This document shows positions 19,218-21,507 of a DNA stretch of 64,000 nt, one piece after another. Under the pieces are notes generated by a model. That model was not told where the DNA came from, searched no databases, and worked only from the letters and a program-made list of their open reading frames with translations. The DNA is from Nitrospirota bacterium (lineage in GTDB: Bacteria; Nitrospirota; Thermodesulfovibrionia; Thermodesulfovibrionales; UBA6898), in contig JAJZPM010000003.1 in the NCBI GenBank assembly GCA_021811105.1, positions 186,001 through 250,000 of the forward strand. Direction: 5' to 3'. The translations under genes were made by a program, and so were the position numbers. Within the stretch, counting starts at the first letter, position 1; each line of letters begins with the position of its first letter.

Positions 19218-19293
19218 CCGTCATTCCCGCGCAGGCGGGAATCCAAACAAGGTGAAAAGGTGGATGCCCGACTAAGAACTTCGGGCATGACGG
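19218..19293. repeat. Composite REP element: two paired hairpins (copy 1)
   Basis: Hairpin one is ATTCCCGC-gcag-GCGGGAAT (19223-19242), hairpin two ATGCCCGA...TCGGGCAT (19264-19288), with GTCATTCC at one outer end and ATGACGG at the other. The same two-hairpin unit lies in opposite orientation at 40818-40897, and truncated forms are at 49956 and 54280. This is a BIME-like dispersed repeat. Confidence 0.85.
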
Positions 19294-19397: not shown

Positions 19398-19441
19398 TAT
19401 CTATTCATAGATTCCACCTTTCTCACAGGAGGTCATAAAGC

Positions 19442-20044
19442 ATGACGTTGAGACCGCTTCAAGACTGGGCCGTTATAAGGAAGTCGGAACCGAAAGAGAG
19501 GACCGCCGGCGGCATCATCATCCCCGAGGTCGCAAAAGAAAAACCGCTGGAAGGCATGATTGTTGCCATCGGACCGGGAAAGTTCAAGACAGAAAAGGGT
19601 AAAGAAAAGAAGAAAACGTTCGTCCCGACAGTCCTGAAGCCGGGACAGCATATAATTTATCAGAAGTACGCCGAAAGGGAGATTGAACTCGACGGTAAAA
19701 CTATTACTCTCGTCAGGGAGGAAGATATCCTCGGCACAGTAGAGGAGCGTGCGCTCGCCGAGAAAAATCCCGGCGCAGTCGAGCAAAAAAAGGAGGGGCC
19801 GGTCGCGATAAGGGAAAAGGCACATGTCCCGCTTGTCCCGCCGGCAAAAACCTCCGCGCAAAAAGTCCCGACGGTGACAAAAAAGCCGGCCGCAAAGAAG
19901 ACCGCGGCAAAAACGCCTCCACCGAAGAAGGAAAAAACAGAAAAAGAAGCAAAGAAGCCTATCGCAAAAAAATCGGCCTCCAAAAAACCCCCGGCAAAAA
20001 AGGCGACTCGTCCCACAGCTAAGGGAAAAGGGGAAAAGAAGTAA
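19442..20044 (+). CDS. GroES-type co-chaperonin with long histone-H1-like tail
   Basis: Residues 1-100 are a Cpn10 domain: MTLRPLQDWAVIRKSE, the GroEL-binding mobile loop ERTAGGIIIPEVAKEKP, IVAIGPGKF, and the closing TLVREEDILGTVEE. A short Lys-rich insert (EKGKEKKK) lies in the roof region. Residues from about 110 to 200 are nearly all Lys, Ala, Pro, Thr and Ser in AKK/PAKK repeats, like bacterial histone H1 or AlgP tails. AGGAGG precedes the ATG. No groEL is adjacent. This doubles normal GroES length (about 96). The tail could bind nucleic acid or acidic proteins; that is inference. Confidence 0.85.
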   Translation: MTLRPLQDWAVIRKSEPKERTAGGIIIPEVAKEKPLEGMIVAIGPGKFKTEKGKEKKKTFVPTVLKPGQHIIYQKYAEREIELDGKTITLVREEDILGTVEERALAEKNPGAVEQKKEGPVAIREKAHVPLVPPAKTSAQKVPTVTKKPAAKKTAAKTPPPKKEKTEKEAKKPIAKKSASKKPPAKKATRPTAKGKGEKK

Positions 20045-20076: not shown

Positions 20077-21507
20077 TCAGGGAGACTTCATCCCGGCAAC
20101 GCCTGCGGCCGCCCGTTCGTGATCGGGCGAAATCTTGAGGGCCTTTTCGAAAAGGCCCTTTGCCCTCGCGGGGAAACCGAGTTCGGCGAAGACAAATCCA
20201 AGTTCGGCCAGGTAGGTGGCGTTGAAGGGTTCGAGCTTCAGCGCTCGCGCAATCGCCTTTTCCGCGGCCTTTGCCTTGTTCTGCCGGAAGAGCGCAAGCC
20301 CATAGTAATAATGATAGTCGGCCACGGAAGGATCGAAATACGTTGCCTGGCCGAAAAGCAGTTCCGCCTCGGCATATCTGTGATTTCTGAGTGCAGCCCT
20401 GCCCTCTTCACACTTGATTTTCGCGTTCTCTCCTGCTGAGGCGGGTCTCGTCGGCTTCAAGGAAACAGACTTATCGTATTCACTTCTTTTTCCGGAATTT
20501 CCCAGTGTGGCATAAGCCTCGTAGATATAGGAAAAGATATCGCTAAGTTTCTCCTTCAAGGCGTCATCTGCAAGATTGAAATGTATGTCCGGATGATACT
20601 TTTTTGCGGCGCGGTAATAGGCGCTTTTTATCTCCGGAAACGCAGCATGCGGCTTCACACCGAGAACGCCGTAATACCCGAGGTCCATATATTTCCCGTG
20701 CATCTCCTCGATGGCACGCAGGACTTCCGGGTCAAGAGAGGGTCTCTGTGCCCCGGCATCGGCAGCATCTCCCTTTTCTCCGCCTGTTTGCGGGGGAGCC
20801 TTCACCTCTACCATCCCGATATTTACCATCGCAAATACCGTCCGCAGGACTTCAAGCCTGTCGAGTCCCGTAAGAGATACGATACCTGCTATCGAAGTTT
20901 TACCGTCAATGCAGGCGAGCGCCCTTCTTCCAGCCTCATCCAGTTTCACCTCCCCTGACAATGAAGCCATATCAAGGGAGACCGCAGGAATGACGTCAAG
21001 TGAGGGCAGCACGTCGGCAATGCGCCTGACGTCGCGGACCCTTTTTGTCCCTGAATAGATGAGGTCCGGGGCGGAGAGCTTCAGCGTCAGGATCTCATTC
21101 GCCGGAAGTTCCGTCTCCTCGATCGAAAACCTGCCCTTGCCGAGACTGAAGAGACCCAGGATGATCTCTTCTATCTGGCGTCTCACCAGACCGACGAGAT
21201 CTTTTGGTTCGCAGCAGCCCATCCCGACAAGAAGTGCACCCTCTTTCCGGCCTGTTCTTTCCATCTCCCGGAAAAGGGCCTTGTGTTGTTCAGCGGATAT
21301 TCTGCCTTCCCTCAGAAGGATATCGGCAAGGCTGTCCCTTCTGTCGCTCGACGAAGAAAACACCATGTCCCCGTTCTGGATGAAGACTTTTTTGACGAAA
21401 CCGCCATGTTCCACGGTAAGTATGCCTGTCTTCCGGCAGCTCTGCATTCCCAGCAGTATGTCCGAGAGACGGTGATCTTTCACCAGGCCCCTGTAGTTCG
21501 TCCCCAT
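20077..21507 (-). CDS. DUF4388 (PATAN) + J-domain + TPR protein
   Basis: This 476-residue cytoplasmic protein begins with a DUF4388/PATAN-like module (MQSCRKTGILTVEHGG, FIQNGDMVFSSSS), a signalling domain of gliding and developmental systems. A J domain follows at about 275-345 with the HPD tripeptide in KKYHPDIH, so it should stimulate a DnaK-type ATPase. TPR-like helices then fill the C-terminus (YYYGLALFRQNKAKAAEKAI). The combination suggests an adaptor recruiting Hsp70 to a signalling complex; partners are unknown. It is convergent with the GroES-like gene, 32 bp apart. Confidence 0.82.
   Translation of the reverse strand: MGTNYRGLVKDHRLSDILLGMQSCRKTGILTVEHGGFVKKVFIQNGDMVFSSSSDRRDSLADILLREGRISAEQHKALFREMERTGRKEGALLVGMGCCEPKDLVGLVRRQIEEIILGLFSLGKGRFSIEETELPANEILTLKLSAPDLIYSGTKRVRDVRRIADVLPSLDVIPAVSLDMASLSGEVKLDEAGRRALACIDGKTSIAGIVSLTGLDRLEVLRTVFAMVNIGMVEVKAPPQTGGEKGDAADAGAQRPSLDPEVLRAIEEMHGKYMDLGYYGVLGVKPHAAFPEIKSAYYRAAKKYHPDIHFNLADDALKEKLSDIFSYIYEAYATLGNSGKRSEYDKSVSLKPTRPASAGENAKIKCEEGRAALRNHRYAEAELLFGQATYFDPSVADYHYYYGLALFRQNKAKAAEKAIARALKLEPFNATYLAELGFVFAELGFPARAKGLFEKALKISPDHERAAAGVAGMKSP

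Follow-up and report, generated by a model that had tools for sequence, protein, structure and literature searches.

A 200-residue protein joining a GroES-type (Cpn10) core to a long lysine-rich C-terminal tail belongs to a second co-chaperonin clade that is found across the Nitrospirota and is distinct from canonical GroES. We put at about one in two the probability that this protein acts as an alternative co-chaperonin for the single GroEL of its genome, with tails that add an affinity for polyanions and so localize GroEL action or nucleic-acid-bound clients.

A GroES-type core with a C-terminal extension

The gene lies in the window, that is, the whole stretch of 64,000 nucleotides that was analyzed, which comes from a 3.94-Mb genome (G000; 93 contigs) with an estimated completeness of 100%. 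Its features are as follows.

19427–19432, + strand: Shine-Dalgarno sequence AGGAGG, 9 nt 5′ of the ATG, read from the sequence
19442–19747, + strand: Cpn10/GroES domain of the Trp9 ("DW") type, residues 1–102 (Pfam PF00166, structure model and invariant columns)
19466–19468, + strand: Trp9, diagnostic for the paralogue clade, Arg in canonical GroES (clade versus canonical rows)
19487–19546, + strand: mobile loop with the hydrophobic tripeptide III (GGIIIP), the GroEL-binding element (tripeptide conservation)
19580–19630, + strand: extended Lys-rich roof loop KFKTEKGKEKKKTFVPT (clade versus canonical roof segment)
19748–19843, + strand: near-neutral linker, residues 103–134, with the motif KKEGPVAI at 19787–19810 (tail charge and motif count)
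19844–20041, + strand: H1-like disordered basic tail, residues 135–200 (composition and low-confidence coil)

The open reading frame at 19442–20044 on the + strand starts with ATG, and Shine-Dalgarno-like stretches were also present upstream of nearly all orthologues. The Pfam Cpn10 model (PF00166) matched residues 3–99 with an E-value of 1.2e-23 and a score of 83.4 bits against a curated cut-off of 21.1. An AlphaFold model built on a 23-sequence alignment was of high confidence in the core except for the mobile loop, and became a low-confidence coil past about residue 101. The predicted core resembled the solved Cpn10 structures 1wnr (Thermus thermophilus; Z 12.5, rmsd 1.7) and 1aon (Escherichia coli GroES; Z 11.0), and the GroES β-barrel fold is predicted to be present in the core of the 200-residue protein. 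The reading frame, the Pfam match, and the model bear out the initial annotation, which had described a Cpn10 domain followed by a long basic C-terminal tail. The NCBIfam cut-offs for canonical "co-chaperone GroES" were not reached, the best match being NF001531 with 89 bits against 96 and the other models falling further below.

Interaction with GroEL requires the hydrophobic tripeptide of the GroES mobile loop. This tripeptide, of the III/LFI/LYI/IFI type, was retained in all 33 tailed rows of the clade described below. An alignment of 18 cores contained 14 invariant columns, and Gly-24, Ile-27, and Pro-28 of the mobile loop were invariant. Pairwise dN/dS values of 0.06–0.10 indicated strong purifying selection on the core.

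A second co-chaperonin clade in the Nitrospirota

Three Cpn10 genes were found in the source genome: the tailed gene, an 87-residue groES (contig C86), and a divergent 120-residue Cpn10 (contig C61). The second, conventional groESL that the initial annotation had proposed to look for is thus present, as a CIRCE–groES–groEL operon on a contig other than that of the window, with a perfect CIRCE before the 87-residue groES and the only groEL of the genome adjoining it. In the tailed gene, neither placement in a groEL operon nor CIRCE control was found: groEL lies elsewhere, and the 64-kb window contained no CIRCE at three or fewer mismatches, in agreement with the earlier statement that a neighboring groEL and a CIRCE site are lacking. 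The roof loop of the canonical GroES of this genome (L072:2165–2428, G000:C86) is almost absent, and longer canonical roofs occur in f2, f5, and f11 of the order. The 120-residue Cpn10 (L003:1474–1836, − strand, G000:C61), which also has no groEL neighbor, is present in many relatives, with 29–33% identity to the query.

Surveys of 61 related genomes and then of 296 genomes drawn across the phylum revealed Cpn10 genes that stand alone and form a clade of their own. In a 97-row tree, the split between this clade and canonical GroES had a support of 96/96 and was recovered in 200/200 bootstrap trees. Trp occupied position 9 in all 64 scorable clade rows, whereas 28 of 29 canonical rows had Arg. 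The roof segment, cut approximately by a simple pattern that left out the canonical rows failing it, had a median of about 30 residues and a net charge of +4 in the clade versus 13 residues and a net charge of 0 in canonical GroES. All 63 clade genes with a readable upstream region were at least six mismatches from CIRCE, compared with three or fewer for 26 of the 30 canonical genes. In the relatives in which GroEL was found, it was present in one copy adjoining the canonical groES. These results place the tailed protein in a Nitrospirota-wide second co-chaperonin clade distinct from canonical GroES.

A tail was present in 33 of the 65 clade rows, 22 of them in the window's order (f1, f2, f5, and f6) and 11 in f23, elsewhere in the phylum. 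Proteins of this architecture were present in 33 of the Nitrospirota genomes searched, in two separate lineages, and the outcome named as refuting in the initial annotation, in which all homologues lack the tail, did not occur. Tail-less versions of about 102–117 residues occurred in f24, f26, f27, f31–f36, and f7, as well as in genome G008, which lies inside the family. Several near-complete related genomes carried no gene of the second clade, and since most of the surveyed genomes are metagenome-assembled, some absences may be gaps. The tree required three changes for the origin of the tail, and a single tailed clade was not rejected (p-AU 0.343). Since Nitrospira-like relatives have the clade gene without the tail, the tail is an elaboration of an older paralogue; it is also not essential to the clade's role, because many members are tail-less and the gene itself is missing from several near-complete relatives. 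The earlier suggestion of a specialized co-chaperonin holds insofar as this is a second paralogue outside groESL with a conserved basic tail. The tail itself is not what specializes the protein, since the paralogue is present without a tail in most Nitrospirota outside the two lineages.

The long Lys-rich roof is common to tailed and tail-less members of the clade. This observation, together with the very short roof of the canonical GroES of the genome and the known mixed lids of chloroplast Cpn10 and Cpn20 (PMC5904260), could be explained if the tails acted with the roof inside the chaperonin complex, on the charge or turnover of the lid, the assembly of mixed rings, or the encapsulation of acidic clients. 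We consider this unlikely: tail and roof are separable, since tail-less members retain the roof, and tails of up to 175 residues far exceed the needs of a local charge patch.

An operon or conserved partner was sought and rejected, as neighbors were not kept beyond close relatives and only the gene itself recurred within the family; the neighborhood points to no client. The convergent neighbor (20077–21507, − strand), which by reading contains a J-domain-like HPD segment and TPR-like repeats, lies beside the gene only within the genus (G000–G002). A GC-rich intergenic palindrome, ATTCCCGCGCAGGCGGGAAT, is located upstream of the gene at 19223–19242, with one pattern match in the window. Outside the Nitrospirota, the searches covered genome contigs (one close-relative scan), viral contigs, and plasmids, so tailed Cpn10 proteins may also occur elsewhere. 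The best 35 viral Cpn10 matches inspected had neither Trp9 nor a tail, and a phage origin was rejected; no place in the plasmids spanned 80% of the query.

Composition and evolution of the tail

The tail (residues 103–200) has a net charge of +20, with 30% Lys plus Arg, 75% Ala, Lys, Pro, Thr, Val, and Ser, one His, and no Phe, Trp, Tyr, or Cys. Its first 40 residues are approximately neutral and nearly all of the charge lies in the remainder; the strongly basic part is about the last 65 residues (135–200), after the near-neutral linker. This is a long, disordered, Lys/Ala/Pro-rich, aromatic-poor tail of the kind found in AlgP and PhaF. With no Cys and one His, it is not a His/Cys-rich extension of the HspA type. 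The comparison with histone H1 stands for composition and fails at the family level, since the score against Pfam HC2 (PF07382) was 20.7 bits, with a cut-off of 40. The tail shares its composition, and a size variation by repeat number, with the chlamydial Hc2/histone H1-like proteins; in Hc2, however, the entire protein is histone-like.

Among the 33 tailed orthologues, tail length ranged from 39 to 175 residues and net charge from +4 to +47. The tail sequence itself was poorly conserved and frequently interrupted by indels, and it evolved faster than the core, with pairwise dN/dS values of 0.10–0.36 that Lys/Ala-repeat codon bias may depress somewhat. No stops or frameshifts were found in the 33 genes, and the net-positive, aromatic-poor character was kept despite the changes in length. 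A linker motif resembling KKxxPVxV occurred in 15 of the 33 tails, compared with 0.8 expected from shuffles, a count that is descriptive because the pattern was drawn up after the alignment had been seen and the sequences are related. The tail is under weak purifying selection and loosely constrained, as expected of a disordered basic segment. A frameshift specific to this assembly, raised as an objection at the outset, was excluded because comparable tails occur in orthologues from other assemblies and because the tail is under purifying selection.

The rapid evolution of the tail, its many indels, its range from none to 175 residues, and its absence from G008 within the family would also fit a near-neutral low-complexity expansion without a specific function. 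We regard this as quite improbable given the dN/dS values, the intact reading frames, the maintained charge and lack of aromatic residues, and the recurring linker motifs.

In genus g6, the tails (L055, L058, L059, L063, and L064) contain an internal MKKT(V/A)KKA (MKTVKKA in L064), which resembles the start of a free H1-like protein and follows a weak purine-rich, Shine-Dalgarno-like stretch. It may be a remnant of a gene fusion or mark an internal start. As a general feature of the tails, an internal translation start was rejected, because the pattern was confined to g6 and absent from the source genome. The source genome itself encodes a free 66-residue H1-like protein, MKKTIRKAAAKAPAKKK..., at L231:1498–1698 (G000:C31), with a few weak relatives in the family.

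A putative alternative lid for GroEL

The intact fold and mobile loop, the constrained core, and the single GroEL per genome argue for an alternative lid for GroEL. The Cpn10 domain would form a GroES-type ring, either by itself or together with canonical GroES, that caps the single GroEL via the mobile loop. A homoheptamer would present seven C-terminal tails with a charge of about +140 in all, giving the lid an affinity for polyanions, of which nucleoid DNA or RNA and ribosomes are the likeliest. This affinity may localize GroEL action, or nucleic-acid-bound clients. Because the gene lies outside the HrcA/CIRCE operon, the co-chaperonin would be available independently of the heat-shock groESL.

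The nucleic-acid part of this proposal rests on analogy with AlgP and PhaF of Pseudomonas, whose KPAA-repeat, H1-like tails reportedly bind DNA or serve as nucleoid tethers for the proteins that carry them (PMC9239181). In both cases, a non-histone module bears a long Lys/Pro/Ala-rich disordered tail, although the carrier is a co-chaperonin here and a granule protein there. We therefore favor a lid that brings GroEL to nucleic acids or keeps it there, and the combination of core and tail, conserved in many related Nitrospirota, suggests that the tailed lid may dock to DNA, RNA, or other acidic partners. More tentatively, the multivalent H1-like tails could anchor GroEL to the nucleoid or to ribosomes and RNA, making the lid a spatially targeted one produced independently of the heat-shock groESL. 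The same comparison raises tethering to polyphosphate granules, as AlgP sits at these granules in Pseudomonas and its C-terminus, a KPAA tail, is needed for granule spacing (PMC9239181). Such a role is very improbable here, since neither Ppk1 (PF02503) nor Ppk2 (PF03976) had a match in the protein's own genome, estimated to be 100% complete.

Another account detaches the protein from GroEL, making it a nucleoid- or RNA-associated protein in which the Cpn10 ring is an oligomerization platform that multiplies the basic tails. Consistent with this are the stand-alone gene with no groEL neighbor, the AlgP/H1-like composition of the tail, the small free AKK-type proteins in the same genome, and the reported nucleoid association of Mycobacterium tuberculosis GroEL1 (PMC5904260). 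GroEL1 is likewise a duplicated chaperonin component with an altered C-terminus (His-rich in mycobacteria), but it is a Cpn60 rather than a Cpn10, and that paper describes no Lys-rich tail for it. We find this account rather doubtful, because the GroEL-binding tripeptide is kept in every tailed member and the core is constrained like that of a working Cpn10.

Compared with canonical bacterial GroES (PF00166), the tailed protein retains the fold, the mobile loop, the core length, and the single domain, but has Trp9 in place of Arg, the long Lys-rich roof, and the basic tail, and lies outside groESL with no CIRCE. A parallel for a lineage-specific, functional C-terminal extension of Cpn10 is Helicobacter pylori HspA, whose His/Cys-rich extension binds nickel and gave the protein a new job in nickel handling (PMC4671568). 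HspA, however, has no other GroES beside it in its genome, whereas the extension described here is Lys/Ala/Pro-rich, far longer, Cys-free, and borne by a second paralogue. No description of a lysine-tailed GroES was found in the open-licence literature searched. Functional Cpn10 extensions and H1-like tails on non-histone proteins are thus already known, and their combination, as judged from sequence, is apparently new.

To our knowledge, few specialized co-chaperonins have been described. A phylum-wide second GroES without a GroEL of its own is a natural system in which to ask whether one GroEL is redirected when its lids are swapped or mixed. Because of the tail, it also becomes possible to test directly whether GroEL can be directed to act at nucleic acids, and the tailed and tail-less orthologues are ready-made controls.
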